NCBI RefSeq assembly: GCF_000429545.1
Contig: NZ_AUCB01000034.1
Coordinates: 1-56,998 of the forward strand
Reading direction: 5' to 3'
Source of the DNA: Arenibacter certesii DSM 19833
GTDB taxonomy: Bacteria > Bacteroidota > Bacteroidia > Flavobacteriales > Flavobacteriaceae
DNA: 56,998 nt
Of the stretch, positions 38,469 to 48,627 are shown in pieces. The notes below the pieces were generated by a model that had not been told where the DNA came from, did not search any database, and saw only the letters and a list, made by a program, of their open reading frames with translations. Positions within the stretch are counted from its first letter, which is position 1, and every line of letters begins with the position of its first letter. The position numbers and the translations under genes were made by a program.

Positions 38469-39689
38469 CTACTTCCTTTTATACCGCAGTTTCCCTAGTT
38501 CAATGCCAATAGCAGTTTTTGCCAATATGGTAAAAATAAAAGCACCTAGTGCCCATATTCCTAAAGTCACACCTACCTCTATACCCGTAGGTAAGTACTC
38601 TACAATTTTACCATAAGGACCAGGAATAAACCCAGGTACGATAAGTCCAAAACCCTTTTCTATCCATATAGCAACAAACAACATTATACAACAGAGGTAT
38701 AATACATTTAAATTGTTTCTTAGCTTATTAAAGGTAAGCATAGCGGTGGCAATGACATTGAGCGTAATTGCGGTCCATATCCAAGGTAATAGAGCTGTTT
38801 TTCCGTGTAATCCAAAAAAGAGGTAATAAGCACTTTCACTGTGATGCGTGGGCGCATAAAATTCTTTAAATAATTCAGATATCAACATTATAAGGTTTAT
38901 CTGAGCCGCAACGGTTACAATCATTGCAATTTTTTTAATGGTCTTTTCTTCTACTTTAAATTCCGTAAAGCGTTTAATAATGGCCAATACCAGAATAATC
39001 AAGGCCGGACCTGCAGCAAATGCAGAAGCTAAGAATCGAGGGCCTAACAAAGCGTTGTTCCAGAAAGGTCTTGCCTGTAACCCTTGATATAAGAACGCAG
39101 TAACCAAGTGAATGGCTACCGCCCAAAATACAGAAAGAATAGCCCCTGGTAAATACACGTTCTTCTTGGCCTCTTTCCCTTGGTAATGTCTAAAGAGGAT
39201 ATAGAAAGGGATACTAATATTTATAAAAAGATAGACATTAAGCACAATAACGTCCCATGCTAACATAGAGTTAGGGAAATTAAATACGCCAATTCCAGGG
39301 ATCATATGCCACAGTACAGCGGGACCACCCATATCTGCTATTACAAAGGCGATACACATAATTAATGCAGCTACCGCTAATCCTTCCCCTATGAGTACCG
39401 CCTGTTTAAAGTCGATATCTTTTAGGATATAAGTTGGCATTACCAACATTACGGCGGCAGCGGCAACGCCTACTAGAAAAGTGAAATTAGAGATATAAAG
39501 TCCCCAACTAACACGGTCGTTCATTCCAGTAACGCTTAGCCCTTCATCTAGCTGAATAGAATAGCAGTACATACCAATTAGGATTACTATGGTTAAAAAC
39601 CCCATCCATAAATGGTATTTAAGAGAGCCTTTTGTGATGGTATCTAAACTATCAACAACTAAACTTTTTAATACTTTAAATTGTCCCAT
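38469..39689 (-). CDS. NrfD/PsrC-type quinone-interacting membrane subunit
   Basis: A 406-residue polytopic protein with about ten membrane helices, typical of the NrfD/PsrC/DsrP family (GMNDRVSWGLYISNFTFLVG, GEGLAVAALIMCIAFVIADM, GPAVLWHMIPGIGVFNFPNS, LGPRFLASAFAAGPALIILV). Family members oxidise menaquinol or ubiquinol at the membrane and pass electrons to a partner Fe-S protein, here the next upstream gene. It is the last gene of the nap operon. Placed with NapA, it takes the place of NapC or NapGH, which are absent. Confidence 0.9.
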   Translation of the reverse strand: MGQFKVLKSLVVDSLDTITKGSLKYHLWMGFLTIVILIGMYCYSIQLDEGLSVTGMNDRVSWGLYISNFTFLVGVAAAAVMLVMPTYILKDIDFKQAVLIGEGLAVAALIMCIAFVIADMGGPAVLWHMIPGIGVFNFPNSMLAWDVIVLNVYLFINISIPFYILFRHYQGKEAKKNVYLPGAILSVFWAVAIHLVTAFLYQGLQARPFWNNALLGPRFLASAFAAGPALIILVLAIIKRFTEFKVEEKTIKKIAMIVTVAAQINLIMLISELFKEFYAPTHHSESAYYLFFGLHGKTALLPWIWTAITLNVIATAMLTFNKLRNNLNVLYLCCIMLFVAIWIEKGFGLIVPGFIPGPYGKIVEYLPTGIEVGVTLGIWALGAFIFTILAKTAIGIELGKLRYKRK

Positions 39690-39780
39690 TCTTATTGTTT
39701 TAAATCACTGGAAAGCATATTAGAATCCTGCTTTACATTTTTGATTTATAATATTTCCAACTACCTTAACTTAATCATCC

Positions 39781-40902
39781 TTAGTCCATAAAGTACCAGA
39801 ATTTGGGTTCTGTTCCCAAATCTTCCTTAAGTCGAAACACTTTTTTGTTTTCTAACACCCATCTAATACTACTGTTTGGATCTAATAGGTTTCCAAAAAT
39901 TCGAGCTCCTGTAGGACAGGCCTCAACACAGGCCGGATTTTTACCCTTTCTAGTACGCTGAACACAAAAAGTACATTTTTCCATCACTCCTTTTTTCCGC
40001 ATTCTATTGCCTAAGTAGTGCTGATTCTTATTGACTTCATTTTCTGGCACTTCGGGTTTACTCCAGTTAAACCTTCTTCCATCATAAGGACAAGCAGCCA
40101 TACAATAGCGACAACCAATGCACCAATCATAATCTATAACAACAAGGCCATCTTCTTCTTTCCAAGTAGCTTGTACAGGACATACGTCTACACATGGTGG
40201 GTCATCACAATGGAAACATTGGGTTCCCATATAAAAATGACCTTCGGCGGGCACTTCATGGTAGTAGTTATCATCCGCTTTATCAAACTTAAAGCCTTCT
40301 CCATCTTTCATCTCGTGGATCCGGATATATTGCATTTCTGAGTTTCTATCCTGATTGTTTTCCGCTACACAGGCCGATACACAATCCATATAGCCTTGAC
40401 ATTTGGAAATATTAAAGGCATATCCAAAGAGCACATCTTCTGCTGCATTTTCCGCGGTCATACTAATATTCTTTCCAGTTCGTAATTCGTAGGAACGCAT
40501 CAGCCTATCTACCGTTTTCTTTTTCTCATCGTCGGTCATCAATTTATAGTTGCCTTTAAACTGCTCTTCCCAATCTATTTGTGCTTTCTCTTTAGCATCG
40601 CCACTAGTAGTTAAGCTACAAGAGGTACTAACGGCTCCTGCACCAATAAGCAGGCTTGCAGTTAGTTTTTTAAAGGCAGTTCTTCGGTCCATCTTAACAT
40701 CAAAAACCTGCTCAAAACCATCCTTGTGTCGCTCTTCGCCTATAGAAGCATTTATGGCAGCTTCATAAAACTCTTCTGCGCTGAGTTCTTCCTTATGAGA
40801 ATTACACCCACCTTCTGCCTTTCCACATCCGCAACTGCCAGAGGAACCCTTTTTCTTATTAAGACCAAGATCTAAAGAATACCATTTTTTATTTTCACTC
40901 AT
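39781..40902 (-). CDS. Four-cluster Fe-S electron-transfer protein (NrfC/DsrO/TtrB-like)
   Basis: The 373-residue protein has ferredoxin-type Cys groups near 168-178, 229-241, 261-271 and 310-329. Groups 2-4 are standard CxxC...CP patterns (CFHCDDPPCVDVCP, CIGCRYCMAACP and CTFC...CVEACP). Group 1 is unusual: C168-x5-C174-x3-C178 instead of CxxCxxC. A twin-arginine-like signal (MDRRTAFKKLTASLLIGAGA, R73/R74) is internal, after a 70-residue extension that has a cysteine-rich patch (SCGCGKAEGGC). Such extensions occur in TAT-variant oxidoreductase subunits. The protein is expected on the periplasmic side, between the NrfD protein and the tetrahaem cytochromes. It begins 10 bp past the tetrahaem lipoprotein stop. 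Confidence 0.88.
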   Translation of the reverse strand: MSENKKWYSLDLGLNKKKGSSGSCGCGKAEGGCNSHKEELSAEEFYEAAINASIGEERHKDGFEQVFDVKMDRRTAFKKLTASLLIGAGAVSTSCSLTTSGDAKEKAQIDWEEQFKGNYKLMTDDEKKKTVDRLMRSYELRTGKNISMTAENAAEDVLFGYAFNISKCQGYMDCVSACVAENNQDRNSEMQYIRIHEMKDGEGFKFDKADDNYYHEVPAEGHFYMGTQCFHCDDPPCVDVCPVQATWKEEDGLVVIDYDWCIGCRYCMAACPYDGRRFNWSKPEVPENEVNKNQHYLGNRMRKKGVMEKCTFCVQRTRKGKNPACVEACPTGARIFGNLLDPNSSIRWVLENKKVFRLKEDLGTEPKFWYFMD

Positions 40903-40912
40903 GCTTATATTT

Positions 40913-41542
40913 TTAGTGATCTAAACCTTCATTACGCTCTATAGCTTTCTGTGTATTAAATTGTGCTGGCCATCGTTGTTCAAAACCTGGATCATGGGGA
41001 TTATGACATTCCACACAAGTCATAGAAGCTCTGGGTGGAGTCCAGCCGGAAATTTTCTTACCATGCGCTCCACCTTTCCAATCTTCAAATTGGTTGGTAT
41101 GGCATTGGGCACAAAGCTTATAGCTGAGATTGAAATCTATGTTTCTGCCAGTCAGGGATGTAAGGTTGTTCATGTCCTCCCCATTATGACAAGTTGCACA
41201 GTCCATTGTTTCTATATTGGCGTGATTTATAGTTATATCCCAATGTGCTTTTGCTTTATCGGTCCCTTTCATCTGTGAAAGTGGTTTGCTATGGCATTCA
41301 ATACAGGCAAATGATTTAATCTGTGATTTACGTTCTGGGATTAAAAAAGTATGTTCGCCCTCGGTAATTTTAATTAAGTCTCTTCCTGCTAATAGCTCTT
41401 CCGAGGTAAGCGTACCATGATAAGGCTTTTCTTCTGCTTTTATTCTATCGCTCACCGAATGATATTCACCTTCGTTTTTGCACGAACTGAGTACTATTAT
41501 TAGAAATAGTAAGGCGTAATATGTTAGATTTTTATTCTTCAT
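40913..41542 (-). CDS. Tetrahaem c-type cytochrome lipoprotein of the nap operon
   Basis: The 209-residue protein has lipobox VLSSC (Cys 21) and four CxxCH sites (C80-H84, C115-H119, C144-H148 and C176-H180). Histidines elsewhere (for example HWDITINHANI and GGAHGKK) are available as distal ligands, which would make the haems bis-His. It begins inside the NapB-like gene (11-bp overlap) and is followed by the Fe-S gene, so it lies between NapB and the NrfD module both in the operon and, by inference, in electron flow. The sequence is not that of NapC/NirT (no N-terminal helix with the NapC haem pattern) nor of NrfB. No named family was recognised. Confidence 0.88.
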   Translation of the reverse strand: MKNKNLTYYALLFLIIVLSSCKNEGEYHSVSDRIKAEEKPYHGTLTSEELLAGRDLIKITEGEHTFLIPERKSQIKSFACIECHSKPLSQMKGTDKAKAHWDITINHANIETMDCATCHNGEDMNNLTSLTGRNIDFNLSYKLCAQCHTNQFEDWKGGAHGKKISGWTPPRASMTCVECHNPHDPGFEQRWPAQFNTQKAIERNEGLDH

Positions 41543-42248
41543 TGGAGGTGTTGAATTGTCTTATGAAAGTAGTTATATCCCCATCTATTTTTTTTGAATC
41601 CATTGGTAAATGACATTGTCTACAATTAACTCGTTCCGGATGGGAAACTCTAATCTCTTTTGGTGCACTAGGTCCTGCATGGCAAGTAACACAGTTTTCT
41701 CTCATTTGTAATTGATGCGGAATCATTGGAGGCCCATCTAATAAGGCATTGTTTACTCCTACACCTACTTTTGGGGGTTCTGGTTTTGAATATGCAAATT
41801 CCTTAAAAGTGGAGTTTGAAATAATTGCCACATGGCATTGCCTACAGTTAACCATTTCTGGATGGGGTGTAATAGGGGCATAGGCATTAAATTTCTCTAC
41901 AAACCCTCCATTTTGATGGCACTGATTACATGTATTGGCTCCATAGCTCATTTCCTTTGCAACAGGATGTGGAATGCTTGGGGGGGCACCTGGATAGGCT
42001 CTATTATCATAATACTCTTCCAAGGAACGTTGATGGTTTTCATCAATCGGCATTTTGGAATAATCCAGATGGGCGTCCTCTAAACGTCTAAAAGCACCAC
42101 TCTCAGCCGGGATATAATTTCCGGTAGGGGATTCAATAACCGATATATAAGCCTCTTCAAAAGATTGTTTATAGCTATAATTCCATATCACTATGAAGGC
42201 TATGAATATGATGACGAAAAGTGATATAATTCCTAGTCTCTTTTTCAT
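41532..42248 (-). CDS. NapB-like tetrahaem cytochrome with internal duplication
   Basis: The 238-residue protein has an N-terminal membrane anchor (residues 5-22) and four CxxCH haem sites: C107-H111, C135-H139, C186-H190 and C209-H213. Sites 1-2 and 3-4 form two equivalent halves. The first has APPSIPHPV..CNQCH..PHPEMVNCRQCHV and the second has GPPMIPHQL..CVTCH..SHPERVNCRQCHLP. Each half matches the di-haem NapB pattern (IPH...CxxCH...CxQCHVP). Normal NapB has only two haems, so this looks like a tandem duplication. It starts 120 bp after the NapA stop, is in the same operon and should be the direct electron donor to NapA. Confidence 0.85.
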   Translation of the reverse strand: MKKRLGIISLFVIIFIAFIVIWNYSYKQSFEEAYISVIESPTGNYIPAESGAFRRLEDAHLDYSKMPIDENHQRSLEEYYDNRAYPGAPPSIPHPVAKEMSYGANTCNQCHQNGGFVEKFNAYAPITPHPEMVNCRQCHVAIISNSTFKEFAYSKPEPPKVGVGVNNALLDGPPMIPHQLQMRENCVTCHAGPSAPKEIRVSHPERVNCRQCHLPMDSKKIDGDITTFIRQFNTSNEE

Positions 42249-42368
42249 CTGTGGATATTTATTGATTTTTAATGGTCATACCTGCCCGACTTCGACATTC
42301 AGGCGGGTGTAATTCGCATATCGTCATTCGTATTTGCGTCCAGTTTTCGGTCATGCTCATTTCATAGC

Positions 42369-44696
42369 CTATGCTTTTACAACTTTAACGGCACATTTTT
42401 TATAGTCGGGTTCTTTGGATATGGGGCAAAAAGCATCCAGTGTTACATCGTTGATAAGCATATTTTCATCAAAAAAGGGAACAAACACCTGACCTCTCGT
42501 AGGTAGGCCCCGTTCATTTATAGAGGCAGGAAGCGTACAGGATCCTCTTCTAGAAACAATTTTTATGTTCTCCCCATTTCTAATACCCAAGGCTTTTGCA
42601 TCTTCAGGGTGGAATTCAGCATAGGCATGTGGCATAGCTTGGTGCAATACCGGAATTCTTCTAGTCATAGATCCAGTGTGCCAATGTTCTATAACGCGAC
42701 CTGTATTTAACCAGAAAGGGTATTCCTCATCTGGTTTTTCGGGTGCATCCTCAAAAGGACGTTGCCATATTACTGCTTTCCCATCTGGATTCCCATAAAA
42801 ATGAAAATCTTCACCGTTAGAGCAGGCAGGATCATATTTGGCGTTATAGCGCCATTGTGTGGATTTCCCATCTACATATGGCCAAATAACCCCAGATTCT
42901 TTTTTCAGAACTTCCAATGGTGCCATGCCGTGTTTATTACCTTCGTGGAATTGGATGTACTCATTATAAATTTCTTCAACATGATTTTCCTTACTATATG
43001 GAAATAAATCGCCATACCCCATGCGTTTTGCCACTTCAATGAACATCCAAGCATCTGCCATGGTTTCTCCCGGACCTTCAACCATTTTTTCCCAATACTG
43101 TGTTCTGCGTTCGGAGTTCCCATAGAGTCCGCCTTTCTCTATATGCCAAGAAGCTGGTAATATTACATCTGCCACATCCGATGTGGGGGTTGGAAATACA
43201 TCTGAAACTACAACAAAGCAGGAGTCTTTTTGCATACCTGGTCTATAGCGCCCCGTTTTAGGTAAGGATACTAGGGGATTTGTTGCTTGTGTCCATATAA
43301 ATTTAATGTCGCCCCGATCAACCGCTCTAAACATTTCTGTTGCGTGGTAAGTGGGTTTAGAAGGAATTCGTTCATAAGGAACCTTCCAAATCTTTGCCGC
43401 CAACCTTCTATTTTCTTCGCTGGTTACCACCCCTTTTGGAAGCTTATGAGTAAAGGTGCCCACCTCTCTGGCAGTACCACAAGCAGAAGGTTGTCCGGTT
43501 AAGGAAAATGGTCCGTTTCCAGGTTGTGATATTTTACCTGTAAGTAAATGAATGTTATAAACAAGATTATTTATCCAAGTCCCTCTAGTATGTTGGTTCA
43601 TCCCCATACACCAGTAAGAAACAACCTTAGTATTTGGATTTCCGTAAATCCACGCTAAGTATTTAATGTCTTTTACCGATACTTTAGAATATTTTGATAC
43701 TTTTTCCGGACTATAATCTTTTAAAAATTCTTTATACGCTTCAAAATCTATTTGTTCTGGCTTATCGGTAAATTCATAGTGATCTTCTAGTCCATACCCC
43801 ATATTGGTGAGGCCTTTACTAAAAGTACAATGTTTTTCAACGAAGGATTTATTTACCCATCCGTTCTTTATAATTTCATAACAAATAGCGTTCGCAACGG
43901 CAAGGTCGGTTTGTGGTTCAAATAATATAGACCTGTCCGATGCTGTACTAGAGCGCGTTGTTCGGGTAGCAAAATCGATTATTTTAGCACCGCGTTTGGT
44001 TTTTTGTTCCAGCATTCTAGAAAATAATACCGGGTGCATTTCTGCCATATTGTTTCCCCAAGTTACAAAGTAATCCGCGTGATCTATATCTTCATAACAA
44101 CCCATGGGCTCATCGGCGCCAAAGGAGGTCATGAACCCCGTAACGGCGCTTGCCATACATAAACGGGCGTTACAATCTAGGTTGTTGGTGCCAATAGCAC
44201 CTTTCATGAATTTAGAAGCGATATACCCTTCGGGAATAGTAGATTGTCCGGAGGTATACATGGCTACGGAATCCTTCCCGTGAGCTGCAATGGTCTCCTT
44301 CATCTTATTGGCTACAATATCCAATGCTTCATTAAGCGGGGTCTTTACATAGCGCCCATTTTTCTTTACCAAAGCATGTTCTAATCGGTCTTTAGACTGG
44401 ATGCACATCGTTTGGTGATATCCTTTAACACACAATAGTCCTTTGTTGACCTTACTATTAGGGTCGCCCTTTACCGCAACTGGTTTTCCGTTTTCAACAC
44501 CGACTAGGATACCACAGCCTACCCCACAGAAACGACAAGGTCCTTTTTTCCAATCTAGATTTGCGTCTTTTGGTATACCTTTTTCCTGCTCACTGGCAAA
44601 TACAATACCCGGAAACATGGAGGCGGCAGCAGTCATGGCAGATAGCATGGCCATTTTTTTGATAAAATTTCTTCTATCAATTGGAGACTTTTTCAT
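42369..44696 (-). CDS. napA: Periplasmic nitrate reductase catalytic subunit
   Basis: The ATG at 44696 gives 775 residues; an in-frame TTG 6 bp upstream is less likely. The protein starts with a twin-arginine signal (DRRNFIKK), then the [4Fe-4S] motif C54-x2-C57-x3-C61-x27-C89. The molybdenum ligand C180 lies in [12 protein letters not shown], followed by [18 protein letters not shown], which is diagnostic for NapA rather than NarG, NasA or formate dehydrogenase. NapA reduces nitrate to nitrite at a Mo-bis-MGD centre in the periplasm. It lies 7 bp after napD and is followed by the NapB-like gene. Confidence 0.95.
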
Positions 44697-44703
44697 AATC
44701 AAA

Positions 44704-44940
44704 TTAATTTTGGGATACGTTGAAACCAGAGACTAAAGACAATAGTTTTAGACTGTCTAAAGCTTCAATTTTCTCTCTTAGCAGTTCTTCTGATTGTTCA
44801 TCTGGAGTATCTGTTACCAACGCTAACACATCTTGATTCTCAGCGGGAACAACTTCACATTGCCCAAGACGGATTAATGCTTCCATTAATTCTTTTTTCT
44901 TTCCTGGGACAGGATGGGCGAGATAACTTTTTATTGGCAT
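44704..44940 (-). CDS. napD: NapD chaperone for NapA maturation
   Basis: The 78-residue protein is a small ferredoxin-fold protein of the NapD family: [20 protein letters not shown], then [20 protein letters not shown] and a C-terminal strand ending [11 protein letters not shown]. NapD binds the twin-arginine signal of NapA in the cytoplasm until the Mo cofactor is inserted, and is usually beside napA. It is slightly shorter than the E. coli protein (87 residues). First gene of the nap operon. Confidence 0.88.
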
Positions 44941-45251: not shown

Positions 45252-46433
45252 ATGATAGACGTTAAATCAGCATTAAATCTAGTTTTACGGCACGCCTCTC
45301 TAGGATCAAAAACACAGGAGGTAGCGCTTAAAGCGGCCTTAGATTTTGTGTTGGCCAAGGATGTAATTTCAGAAATAGATATGCCTCCCTTTAGACAATC
45401 GGCCATGGATGGTTATGCGCTGCACATGGGGGAATCCAATTCTTATAAAGTTATAGGTGAAGTAAAGGCGGGTGATGCTGCAAATCCTGTTTTAAAAGCG
45501 GGTGAGGCGGTAAGGATATTTACAGGAGCCCCAGTTCCAGATACCGCAAATACGGTAGTAATGCAGGAGAAAGTAAGGGTTAATGGAGATAAGATCGTGC
45601 TTGTTGATCCATTAAATGTTAATCAGAATATAAGACCTAATGGGGAACAAATTAGATCCGGAGCAATCGCTTTAACCAAGGGAACAGCAATTAATAGCGC
45701 ACGAATTGGATTTTTAGCAAGTTTAGGGATTACTACTATTACGGTTTATAAGAAGCCTACCCTTTCTATTATTGTTACAGGAAACGAGCTTATTACTCCA
45801 GGAATTAAACTTTCCTTTGGTGAAATATATGAATCCAACGGTGTCATGCTATCCGCTGTACTAAGTGAATTAGGGTATAAGGATACTAGATTGATTAAGG
45901 TGGAGGATGATTATAACCAGACAAAAGAAGTCCTGCAAAAAGCCATAAACAATAGCGATGTTGTTCTTGTAACAGGAGGTATATCCGTTGGGGATTACGA
46001 TTTTGTAGGCAAAGCATTAAATGCAATAGGGGTGGAAGAAATTTTTTATAAAGTAAATCAAAAACCTGGTAAACCCTTATTCTTTGGGAAAAAAGGCGAA
46101 GTGTCCCTTTTTGCATTACCTGGGAATCCGGCAGCTGCACTTAGTTGTTTTTATATTTATGTGTACCCGCTACTAAAGAAGAGTGAAGGCGCATATAAAA
46201 CGCAACTTACGCGTATTGCCATGCCGCTATCTGTTGATTATTCTGTTAGGGGTAATCGTGCGCAGTTTTTAAAAGCACAAGTAGAGGGAAGTCATGTTCA
46301 TATTCTAGGCGGACAAAGTTCGGCTATGCTCAGCGCTTTTGGAGATGCAAATGCCTTGGTATACATACCGGAGGAGGTAACTGAAATAAAAAAAGGAGAA
46401 GGTGTAGAAACAATATTATTACCTGCTAAATAA
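45252..46433 (+). CDS. moeA: Molybdopterin molybdenumtransferase
   Basis: The 393-residue protein has normal MoeA length and layout: an N-terminal linker with ISEIDMPPFRQSAMDGYALH, the PNGEQIRSGA turn, then the MPT-binding domain with IVTGNELI, the GEIYESNG segment and VLVTGGISVGDYDF (the MoCF-fold signature). KVNQKPGKPLFFGKK and ALPGNPAAALSCF follow. MoeA inserts molybdate into adenylylated molybdopterin. It is the first gene of the Mo-cofactor set divergent from the nap operon, which supplies the cofactor for NapA. No MoaA, MoaD/E or MobA gene is in the window. Confidence 0.93.
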   Translation: MIDVKSALNLVLRHASLGSKTQEVALKAALDFVLAKDVISEIDMPPFRQSAMDGYALHMGESNSYKVIGEVKAGDAANPVLKAGEAVRIFTGAPVPDTANTVVMQEKVRVNGDKIVLVDPLNVNQNIRPNGEQIRSGAIALTKGTAINSARIGFLASLGITTITVYKKPTLSIIVTGNELITPGIKLSFGEIYESNGVMLSAVLSELGYKDTRLIKVEDDYNQTKEVLQKAINNSDVVLVTGGISVGDYDFVGKALNAIGVEEIFYKVNQKPGKPLFFGKKGEVSLFALPGNPAAALSCFYIYVYPLLKKSEGAYKTQLTRIAMPLSVDYSVRGNRAQFLKAQVEGSHVHILGGQSSAMLSAFGDANALVYIPEEVTEIKKGEGVETILLPAK

Positions 46434-46443
46434 TTTATGAAAT

Positions 46444-46785
46444 ATGAGTACGTATAAAATTAAAAGCAGAATTTGGATTGAAGCGGGAGATAATGTTTTT
46501 TTAGGGGAAGGCCGAGTGAAGTTATTAAAAGCGATTGATGAAGAAGGGTCTTTATCCAAAGCTGCTAAGTCGCTTGGGATGTCGTACAAAAAAGCTTGGA
46601 CCTTGGTAGATGCGGTAAACAAATCGGCAAAAAGGAAGGTGGTCGTAAAAACAGTGGGAGGTGCACAAGGAGGGGGAACCAAAATTACCCCGTATGGAAA
46701 AAAGCTTATAGAAGCGTTTGAGACTATTAATAAGAATTGTTGGGCCTTCCTAGACCAACAACTAAAAGCGTTGGATAGTATATGA
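46444..46785 (+). CDS. ModE-type winged-helix regulator, DNA-binding domain only
   Basis: A 113-residue protein that matches only the N-terminal domain of ModE: RIWIEAGDNVFLGEGRVKLL, then AIDEEGSLSKAAKSLGMSYK, KAWTLVDAVN and the KVVVKTVGGAQGGGTKITPY wing. Full-length ModE has two C-terminal molybdate-binding MopI/TOBE domains, which are missing. Such single-domain ModE-like proteins are common in Bacteroidetes and other phyla. The position between moeA (10 bp) and the permease (overlap ATGA) makes a role in molybdenum or Nap regulation likely, but direct molybdate sensing is not evident. It could act through another protein. Confidence 0.85.
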   Translation: MSTYKIKSRIWIEAGDNVFLGEGRVKLLKAIDEEGSLSKAAKSLGMSYKKAWTLVDAVNKSAKRKVVVKTVGGAQGGGTKITPYGKKLIEAFETINKNCWAFLDQQLKALDSI

Positions 46786-47528
46786 TGATTAACGATCCCA
46801 ACTTTTTATTATTTCTGGGTATACTTCCGGTGATTGCGTTTTTATATGCTGGAGTTGGTCACGGAGGTGCAAGTGGGTACTTGGCCTTGATGTCCTTGTT
46901 TTCTATGGCGCCAGAAACCATGAAACCTACAGCCTTACTTTTAAATTTATTTGTAGCGGGCACCTCTTTTTACTTCTATTATAAAGAAGGCTATTTTAAC
47001 AAAAAGCTCTTCCTGTATTTCGCAATATCTTCTATTCCAATGGCTTATTTAGGCGGACTTATCACTGTGGATGCCAGTATTTATAAAATCATCTTAGGGG
47101 TATTGCTGATTTTTGCAATACTAAAGATGCTAAATGTTTTTGGTAAGGAAAATGAGGTTATAAGAGAGGTAAAACTGTGGCAAGGTTTGCTGGTAGGAGG
47201 TGTAATTGGTTTCTTTTCGGGTCTTATTGGCATTGGAGGTGGCATTATATTAAGTCCGGTAATTTTATTGTTGCATTGGGGAAAAATGAAGGAAGCCGCT
47301 GCGGTATCTGCCCTCTTTATATGGGTGAATTCCGCTGCAGGTTTAGCAGGTCAGTTCACTAACGGCATTGTATTAAATAAGCAGTCGCTCCTAATGGTGA
47401 CTTTGGCTGTAATAGGCGGATTTGCAGGGAGTTATTATGGTAGTAAAAGAATGAGTAATACGAATGTGAGGTATATGCTTACTGTAGTATTGATTGCTGC
47501 CTCCGTGAAATTGATTTTTATACAATGA
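46782..47528 (+). CDS. TauE/SafE (TSUP) family permease
   Basis: The 248-residue protein has about seven to eight membrane helices and both halves of the TSUP repeat: PVIAFLYAGVGHGGASGYLA near the N-terminus and GFFSGLIGIGGGIILSPVIL at mid-protein. TSUP proteins move sulfonates, sulfite, sulfate or other small organic anions. Here it overlaps the ModE-like gene and lies between moeA and the MoaC-B fusion, so molybdate, sulfite or a sulfur donor for the cofactor are reasonable candidates; the cargo is not known. Confidence 0.85.
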   Translation: MMINDPNFLLFLGILPVIAFLYAGVGHGGASGYLALMSLFSMAPETMKPTALLLNLFVAGTSFYFYYKEGYFNKKLFLYFAISSIPMAYLGGLITVDASIYKIILGVLLIFAILKMLNVFGKENEVIREVKLWQGLLVGGVIGFFSGLIGIGGGIILSPVILLLHWGKMKEAAAVSALFIWVNSAAGLAGQFTNGIVLNKQSLLMVTLAVIGGFAGSYYGSKRMSNTNVRYMLTVVLIAASVKLIFIQ

Positions 47529-47706
47529 TAAAAGCATCGATTACCTTTAAGGGATACTGTCACAAAAATCCAGATTCTGAATAGGGGAGAGGTGATTTGG
47601 TAAAAAACCAATTGAATGCCGACCATCCCGAAAATTTAAGCACAAGGGTCAGTAAAGAGATTTCTAAGAAGCATTACATCAAATTAAAGAAAAGGTTATA
47701 GCAATT

Positions 47707-48627
47707 ATGGTAGATATTACACATAAAAACAATACGCTGAGAACAGCAATTGCCCAGGCAATTGTAAAAGTTAGTAAGGAAGAAACAATTGAGGCAATTA
47801 ATAATAAAACCGTACCTAAGGGCGATGTGTTTGCTATGAGTAAGGCTGCCGGACTTATGGGCGTTAAAAAAACACCAGATCTACTTCCAGATTGTCATCC
47901 TTTGCCCATCGAATTTACTGGGATCGACTATGAGATTAATGGATTGGAGATTAAAGTAACCGTTACGGTTAAAACAATCTATAAAACAGGTGTGGAGGTA
48001 GAGGCCATGCATGGAGCAAGTATTGTAGCGCTAAATATGTACGATATGCTGAAGCCCATAGATAAAGGAATAGAAATTCATCATATTAAACTATTGAAGA
48101 AAACAGGGGGCAAGTCTAGTTTTAAGGACAAGTTTAAGCGTGATGTAAATGCGGTAGTCATCGTCTGTTCCGATTCCGTATATGAAGGTAAAAAAGAAGA
48201 CAGTGCCGGTAAAGCAATCTTGAATAAACTAGAAGCATGTGAGGTAGGGATTCAGGATTACATCATTATTCCTGATGATGCCCAGATAATTGAGGAGAAA
48301 GCAAAGCACTACCAATCTAATGGAGCCGATTTAATCATCTATACAGGGGGAACAGGACTATCTAGTCGTGATGTAACACCGGAAGCATTAGAACCCCTCC
48401 TGGATCGTAGGATTCCTGGAATAGAAGAAGCGATTAGAAAATATGGCCAAGATCGTATGCCGTATGCCATGTTGTCTAGAAGTATTGCCGGAACTATAAA
48501 AAACACCTTGGTCCTTGCATTACCGGGTTCTACTAACGGGGCACGCGAATCTATGGATGCTATATTCCCATCGGTGTTACATGTTTTTAGAATTTTAAAA
48601 GGAGCGAGTCATGATAAAACAAAATAG
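47707..48627 (+). CDS. moaCB: MoaC-MoaB/Mog bifunctional molybdopterin protein
   Basis: The 306-residue fusion has an N-terminal MoaC domain (about 1-145) with MVDITHKNNTLRTAIAQAIV, LPDCHPLPI, and the VEVEAMHGASIVALNMYDM block. It has a C-terminal MoaB/Mog domain (about 150-306) with VIVCSDSVYEGKKEDSAG, the TGGTGLSSRDVTPEAL loop and the ALPGSTNGARESMDAI closing motif. MoaC makes cyclic pyranopterin monophosphate after MoaA; MoaB/Mog adenylates molybdopterin for MoeA. The fusion is widespread in Bacteroidetes. 178 bp separates it from the permease; part of that gap is open in frame (about 47570-47700) but no start or family was found. Confidence 0.93.
   Translation: MVDITHKNNTLRTAIAQAIVKVSKEETIEAINNKTVPKGDVFAMSKAAGLMGVKKTPDLLPDCHPLPIEFTGIDYEINGLEIKVTVTVKTIYKTGVEVEAMHGASIVALNMYDMLKPIDKGIEIHHIKLLKKTGGKSSFKDKFKRDVNAVVIVCSDSVYEGKKEDSAGKAILNKLEACEVGIQDYIIIPDDAQIIEEKAKHYQSNGADLIIYTGGTGLSSRDVTPEALEPLLDRRIPGIEEAIRKYGQDRMPYAMLSRSIAGTIKNTLVLALPGSTNGARESMDAIFPSVLHVFRILKGASHDKTK

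Follow-up and report, generated by a model that had tools for sequence, protein, structure and literature searches.

The 56,998-nucleotide stretch analysed here (the window: positions 1 to 56,998 of the forward strand of contig NZ_AUCB01000034.1, from Arenibacter certesii DSM 19833) carries on its minus strand a six-gene operon for periplasmic nitrate reduction (Nap), in which the catalytic subunit NapA is encoded with two tetrahaem cytochromes, an Fe-S protein and an NrfD-family membrane protein. The operon, described in a first-pass annotation of this DNA as napD-napA-(NapB-like)-(lipoprotein)-(Fe-S)-(NrfD type), was found complete, with all six open reading frames (ORFs) in place:

44704..44940, minus strand: napD-like gene of 78 amino acids (aa), first gene of the operon, probable NapA chaperone; Pfam NapD 19.7 bits (cut-off 28)
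42369..44702, minus strand: napA, periplasmic nitrate reductase catalytic subunit; PRK13532 match over cut-off
41532..42248, minus strand: NapB-like tetrahaem cytochrome with an N-terminal hydrophobic helix; Pfam NapB over cut-off
40913..41542, minus strand: tetrahaem cytochrome, predicted lipoprotein; four CXXCH motifs, lipid cysteine C21
39781..40902, minus strand: Fe-S subunit, DsrO-like; DsrO 197.5 bits (cut-off 200), cysteine columns
38469..39689, minus strand: NrfD-family integral membrane subunit, DsrP type; DsrP model over cut-off

The listed start of napA is a TTG, and an ATG at 44696 is the likelier one. Seven base pairs (bp) separate the napD-like gene from this ATG, and the genes that follow are spaced by 120 bp, an 11-bp overlap, 10 bp and 91 bp. 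NapA passes the PRK13532 model (939.7 bits, cut-off 904), narrowly misses TIGR01706 (902, cut-off 930.55) and finds its best PDB match in 2nya, a periplasmic nitrate reductase. It has a twin-arginine motif (DRRNFIKK), an Fe-S motif (C56/C59/C63/C91) and a cysteine, C182, at what we take to be the place of the molybdenum-binding cysteine; C182 is present in 66/68 aligned rows, the remaining two being gaps. The protein thus combines a NapA-model match with a cysteine at the molybdenum-binding position. The napD-like product stays below the Pfam NapD cut-off and has no NCBIfam match at 1e-5, and its probable identity as NapD is based on position, size and linkage.

We examined the linkage of the six genes in two sets of relatives. 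The first, selected by the NapB-like gene in a scan of named genomes, comprised the best 80 loci of 215 relatives, and 75 of these 80 have the six genes in order. The other five are four loci cut by a contig end (L016, L018, L020 and L033, one with a broken Fe-S frame) and a locus of Haloflavibacter putidus (L026) that is weighed below. The closest named relative is Arenibacter latericius (L009), with a NapB-like protein at 98%. The second set was selected by NapA (E ≤ 1e-140) in 397 sampled genomes of the family, which we took to be Flavobacteriaceae since the named loci are from flavobacteria. NapA was present in 68 of the 397, and 67 of these 68 have all six genes in order (the window and 66 of 67 fetched loci). 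The linkage of the six genes is thus fixed within this family and goes beyond chance. Exactly six genes were found in 63 of the 67 fetched loci; two have a broken napA (L167 and L210), one has an extra molybdenum-family ORF (L205) and one is cut by a contig end (L215). Stop codons break the napA frame in both L167 and L210 (a single TAA in one case, one TGA and one TAG in the other), and the other five genes were found. Of 388 family genomes, 66 encode the lipoprotein, and all but one of these 66 also have NapA; in the lone NapA-negative genome (G741), the copy starts 678 bases from the contig start.

Outside the family, a different picture emerged. Such a NapA was present in 17 of 395 genomes sampled across the phylum, four of them in Flavobacteriaceae, and the DsrP matches within the family in a phylum sample of 375 fell in these same four NapA carriers (G000, G134, G182 and G296). 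None of the 13 NapA loci outside the family had matches to the NapB-like, lipoprotein, Fe-S or NrfD-type proteins (tblastn, E 0.001, 12.5–19 kilobases (kb) around napA). Instead, four of the 13 have NapG-like (142.6–155.7 bits) and NapH-like (99.7–123.6 bits) proteins, below curated cut-offs, and nine (L115–L123) have a tetrahaem protein with 2–3 hydrophobic segments adjoining napA, which passes the NapC/NirT cut-off in 8/9 and is possibly an enlarged NapC-like donor. Thus, in these samples, Nap goes with the new module in Flavobacteriaceae and with donors of known kinds in the rest of the phylum. A NapB-like match in one further genome (G189) was rejected, as it proved to be a trihaem protein that occupies the position of DsrJ in a cluster resembling dsrMKJOP.

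We also searched for the usual donors within the A. certesii genome (83 contigs, 99.99% complete), as a NapC or NapGH set elsewhere would have undercut the reading that the operon brings its own. There was no NapC/NirT-family (PF03264) match and no NarG. NapH gave two weak matches, one scoring 61.9 bits in a 530-aa ORF and the other 26.2 bits in a 482-aa ORF, neither of them credible (NapG was not searched separately). On this point the first-pass proposal was not refuted. Among the 68 NapA-bearing genomes of the family, 33 lack a PF03264 protein over cut-off and 35 have one. In all 30 PF03264 loci inspected, the gene adjoins an ORF with four CXXCH motifs and one CXXCK (a nitrite reductase), and we rejected NapC for these proteins in favour of NrfH on the basis of this nrfA neighbour. 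Of the five other genomes, G628 has the gene beside a CXXCK ORF, G544 has a 101-aa two-haem ORF with no CXXCK neighbour, and G598, G630 and G666 fell outside the locus inspection. NapH was over cut-off in 0/68, the best among the matches listed being 72.0 bits in a 531-aa ORF (NapG was not searched). The cut-off by itself would be an unfair measure, given the 99.7–123.6 bits of the NapH-like proteins at the four outside loci; the argument combines score with ORF size, NapH being ~250–300 aa. At four fetched loci (L161, L163, L166 and L199), an NrfH-like tetrahaem gene and a CXXCK-containing NrfA-like gene lie directly downstream of the NrfD-type gene; in L163 this pair passes the NrfH and PRK11125 (NrfA) cut-offs, placing nitrate reduction and nitrite-to-ammonium reduction side by side.

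Two NrfD-family proteins are encoded in the A. certesii genome. The one in the operon scores above the cut-offs for DsrP (420.8 > 350 bits) and Pfam NrfD (122.3 > 25.8), and reaches 44.4 bits with the QrcD model (cut-off 570). NrfD of the NrfABCD type was considered and rejected, as TIGR03148 is not among the three matches at 0.001 (DsrP, QrcD and TtrC). These scores place the membrane subunit with DsrP and not with the NrfD of NrfABCD. Ten hydrophobic segments were counted in its close relatives L108–L110. To compare residues, we mapped the protein through the DsrP of locus L278, whose letters match the published DsrP1 numbering at 19/20 positions and whose origin we guess, from dsrMKJOP-like clusters, to be Chlorobi. 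On the basis of homology models, PMC8076601 lists 20 DsrP residues for the binding of quinone and for ion pathways, and 16 of them are kept. The quinone quartet Y65, D119, S141 and D146 is present in 67/67 NrfD-type proteins, and each half of the protein retains ion-pathway residues of the DsrP type. In our reading of the residue tables, S141 would correspond to Qrc S138 and D119 to Qrc D120; in Qrc, S138 is reported as essential and a D120A variant as retaining 68% activity (PMC13059093). K345 is present in 66/67 and aligns with Arg387 of the second NrfD-family protein of the genome, which is ActC-like. The gene for the latter lies on another contig, adjoining genes for cytochrome oxidase, for a protein with six haems and for a QrcBC-like molybdopterin/Fe-S protein of 1036 aa, a set that we read as alternative complex III.

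The Fe-S subunit falls just below the DsrO cut-off and scores 149.5 bits with the QrcC model (cut-off 400). Its twin-arginine motif (R73-R74) is present in 67/67, and C95, a possible lipid cysteine, in 65/67. The first-pass annotation called this a four-cluster protein; of the 16 cluster cysteines expected for such a protein, it has 15. Motif I reads C-x2-Y-x2-C-x3-C, with Tyr171 in 67/67, and a cysteine occupies this position in four DsrO-type proteins and in a second, related unit of genome G296. Because Tyr171 replaces a cysteine, the motif-I cluster is likely to be [3Fe-4S]. In the ActB-like protein of the same genome, the missing cluster cysteine is in motif III, as opposed to motif I in the operon subunit. 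Residues 1–70 form an N-terminal extension before the twin-arginine motif, with C24, C26 and C33 in 65, 62 and 65 of 67, respectively. The extension is not seen in L110; the ActB-like protein is also extended, and its extension matches the model 'TAT-variant-translocated molybdopterin oxidoreductase'.

Four CXXCH motifs in each of the two cytochromes account for the eight haems outside NapA that had been counted from the sequence earlier. The NapB-like protein passes Pfam NapB (33.5 > 25.1 bits), and its profile gives weak matches to NapB structures (1ogy_B, E 2.8e-5; 3ml1_B and 1jni_A, E 0.002–0.004) and also to a nitrite reductase (E 0.008). It consists of two tandem units of the form H..CXXCH..H..CXXCH, H94/C107-H111/H129/C135-H139 and H178/C186-H190/H203/C209-H213, and the outer histidines H94, H129, H178 and H203, conserved in 67/67 rows, suit four bis-His haems. 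Four CXXCH motifs are present in 66/67 operons and three in one. The NapB pattern is kept around the first and last haems, and the protein looks like a duplicated NapB, as distinct from the canonical, soluble form with two c-haems. An N-terminal helix (residues 2–32) is the sole confident part of its AlphaFold model, which makes a membrane anchor likely. The lipoprotein has its lipid cysteine, C21, in 66/67 operons, and histidines beyond the haem motifs (H100, H107, H160 and H183) in 67/67. Its CXXCH motifs number four in 64/67 operons, five in two and three in one. It matches no NCBIfam family above that family's cut-off, and its profile matches to structures are weak (best E 0.013).

The second unit of G296, a 2.5-megabase genome, encodes a lipoprotein 37% identical to that of the operon, an Fe-S protein at 52% and a DsrP-type protein at 45% (382.7 bits). 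It lies at L276:7062-12899, in a 13-kb stretch that reaches the contig end and shows no NapA. That the three genes recur there without NapA argues, from this one case, that lipoprotein, Fe-S and NrfD-type proteins form a quinol-cytochrome unit by which NapB and NapA would be fed. The G296 unit is followed by a monohaem cytochrome and by a tetrahaem/Fe-S/NrfD-like set below curated cut-offs.

Sequence variation in the operon follows a different course in napA than in the other genes. Among 64 kept loci there are two NapA types (29 and 35 loci, the window in the first), with mean NapA identities of 85% within types and 73% between them. The other five genes show almost no split along these types and co-vary with one another (r 0.70–0.88). 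Differences fixed at >90% in both types number 41, all within NapA residues 90–585. On the NapA tree the type switches once, whereas a quick tree built from the four downstream genes requires 12 or more switches, and a single clade by NapA type is rejected on the four-downstream-gene tree (approximately unbiased test, p-AU 0.0014, with groups named after the identities had been seen). The plain reading is that the napA core has recombined between operons around a constant electron module. Residue 177, five residues before C182, is a cysteine or an alanine and distinguishes the types.

Because the A. certesii genome has no NapC or credible NapH, because the linkage with NapA is fixed and because the quinone-site residues are kept, the best reading of these data is that the NrfD-type and Fe-S proteins make up the quinol-oxidising part of the system. 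The first-pass annotation had proposed that an NrfD and an Fe-S protein take electrons from quinol in place of NapC or NapGH; this proposal is supported in part, with a DsrP-type subunit in the role given to NrfD. We put a probability of roughly 0.72 on the operon encoding a dedicated membrane-bound quinol:nitrate electron-transfer system that replaces NapC or NapGH, which would most likely make it a third dedicated quinol dehydrogenase for Nap. In such a system, quinol, probably menaquinol, would be oxidised at the DsrP-type subunit near the periplasmic face, and electrons would then move via the Fe-S subunit, with its four clusters, to the tetrahaem lipoprotein and on to the membrane-anchored tetrahaem NapB. 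NapB would in turn reduce the [4Fe-4S] cluster and then the molybdenum site of NapA, where nitrate would be converted to nitrite. We infer that these proteins form one complex, and likewise the order of carriers, the direction of flow, menaquinone as the quinone and the end of the chain at which the [3Fe-4S] cluster would lie.

Several observations weigh against this reading. Haloflavibacter putidus keeps the NapB-like, lipoprotein, Fe-S and NrfD-type genes (L026:8682-13793) without napDA alongside. Four DsrP residues, R152, K162, T194 and K329, are lost by strict numbering. The AlphaFold models of both cytochromes are poor (mean predicted local distance difference test scores of 40.6 and 45.8). 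The napA gene correlates weakly with the other five (r 0.38–0.46), which fits swapping, but would fit a looser partnership too. Finally, the alternative-complex-III-like set of the same genome could reduce a cytochrome that feeds NapB (Qcr, of the bc1 type, was not searched for).

How much energy such a route would yield is a separate matter. Menaquinol at −75 mV and nitrate at +420 mV (PMC6195509) span 495 mV, enough for coupling, and a Qrc-like proton path run toward quinol oxidation could equally waste the gradient. One version of the quinol:nitrate route, which refines it rather than competing with it, has the quinol step electroneutral, as with NapC, and the operon serving redox balancing more than growth. 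We give this version somewhat less than an even chance: according to PMC6195509, periplasmic quinol oxidation with nitrate reduction conserves no energy unless protons are moved, but the membrane subunit retains ion-pathway residues in both its halves, and some relatives carry nrfHA for a further step to ammonium. It seems doubtful to us that the DsrP-type subunit instead moves protons as it oxidises menaquinol, which would give flavobacterial Nap a higher yield than Nap driven by NapC or NapGH.

A further alternative would leave the cytochromes out of the path to NapA. The Fe-S subunit could dock directly on NapA in a trimer resembling polysulfide or tetrathionate reductase, with the cytochromes serving another partner such as a nitrite reductase or an outside donor. 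NapA and the Fe-S protein both have twin-arginine motifs, NrfD and Fe-S subunits lie under the molybdenum subunit in several complexes (PMC8076601), and nrfHA-type genes are just downstream at the four loci named above. However, the NapB pattern at the first and last haems of the NapB-like protein is that of the usual NapA partner, G296 has a set of lipoprotein, Fe-S and NrfD-type genes that lacks NapA, and nrfHA is no fixed neighbour, as 33/68 genomes have no NapC/NrfH-family protein over cut-off. Direct docking is improbable. Still harder to sustain is the proposal that alternative complex III (or Qcr) supplies NapB while the NrfD-type module serves reductive maturation of NapA or reverse cytochrome:quinone reduction: the genome does contain an alternative-complex-III-like set, and in Campylobacter jejuni electrons reach Nap through QcrABC, with NapGH perhaps in another role (PMC6195509), but that set is on another contig, next to genes for cytochrome oxidase, and the module is found with NapA in 67/68 genomes and has its quinone-site residues intact.

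Divergent molybdenum-cofactor genes stand beside the operon:

45252..48627, plus strand: the divergent cluster as a whole; MoeA, TauE and MoaC Pfam domains over cut-off
45252-46433, plus strand: moeA; Pfam MoeA over cut-off
46444-46785, plus strand: modE-type gene; ModE domain 85.6, under cut-off 98.5
46782-47528, plus strand: TauE/SafE family gene; Pfam TauE over cut-off
47707-48627, plus strand: moaC fused to a molybdopterin-binding domain; Pfam MoaC over cut-off

Relatives of moeA and modE diverge from the operon in 30/67 fetched loci, and modE alone does so in three. In Haloflavibacter putidus, no napD, napA, moeA or modE was found within the 20.7 kb fetched. A pattern search found no FNR-like site upstream of napD, and a loose pattern was as frequent in the window as in shuffled sequence.

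In the usual view, Nap draws on quinol by way of NapC or NapGH and no energy is conserved, and the use of Qcr by Campylobacter was reported as an electrogenic departure (PMC6195509). The quinol:nitrate route proposed here matters in this context, as 68 of 397 family genomes have a strictly linked, different donor module, so that genome-based accounts of their nitrate respiration would have to change; a genome paper on Tenacibaculum maritimum, for example, names NapAB alone in its account (PMC5561996). The operon would also allow a clean genetic approach to the question of proton movement by an NrfD-type subunit. As the DsrP-type module is best known from sulfur metabolism, these marine flavobacteria may breathe nitrate by an undescribed route. 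We did not find the operon in the literature searched (open-licence PMC papers). No Nap system figures among the NrfD complexes listed in PMC8076601, and the word NapA is absent from the main text of that paper. Each part is of a known kind; it is the combination that is not shown in that literature.

With the NapC, NapGH and NapM (napMADGH) systems, the operon shares NapA, a probable NapD, a multihaem cytochrome donor and periplasmic nitrate reduction; it differs in having a DsrOP-type pair and two tetrahaem cytochromes as the donor. Planctomycetota metagenome-assembled genomes have NrfD-like clusters next to nap or nar genes (PMC10732223), which, unlike the operon, are of the alternative-complex-III type with actD; the account given there describes neither a tetrahaem NapB nor a conserved six-gene nap operon, and its authors leave the role of the cluster open, as a nitrite reductase or a part of the respiratory chain. 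The QrcABCD complex and alternative complex III have the same layout of cytochrome, molybdopterin-family protein, Fe-S protein and NrfD, and QrcC is reported to carry one [3Fe-4S] cluster (PMC8076601), as is likely for the operon Fe-S subunit; in the operon, however, the molybdenum protein is NapA with its own NapB, and the QrcD and QrcC scores are low. The DsrJOP part of DsrMKJOP resembles the operon in its DsrP-scoring subunit, its near-DsrO Fe-S protein and a multihaem cytochrome that adjoins them in the manner of DsrJ. Compared to DsrMKJOP, the operon lacks dsrM, dsrK and dsrJ (the rest of the genome was not searched for dsrMK), has two tetrahaem cytochromes in place of one trihaem protein, carries a tyrosine in motif I of its Fe-S subunit and is linked to NapA.

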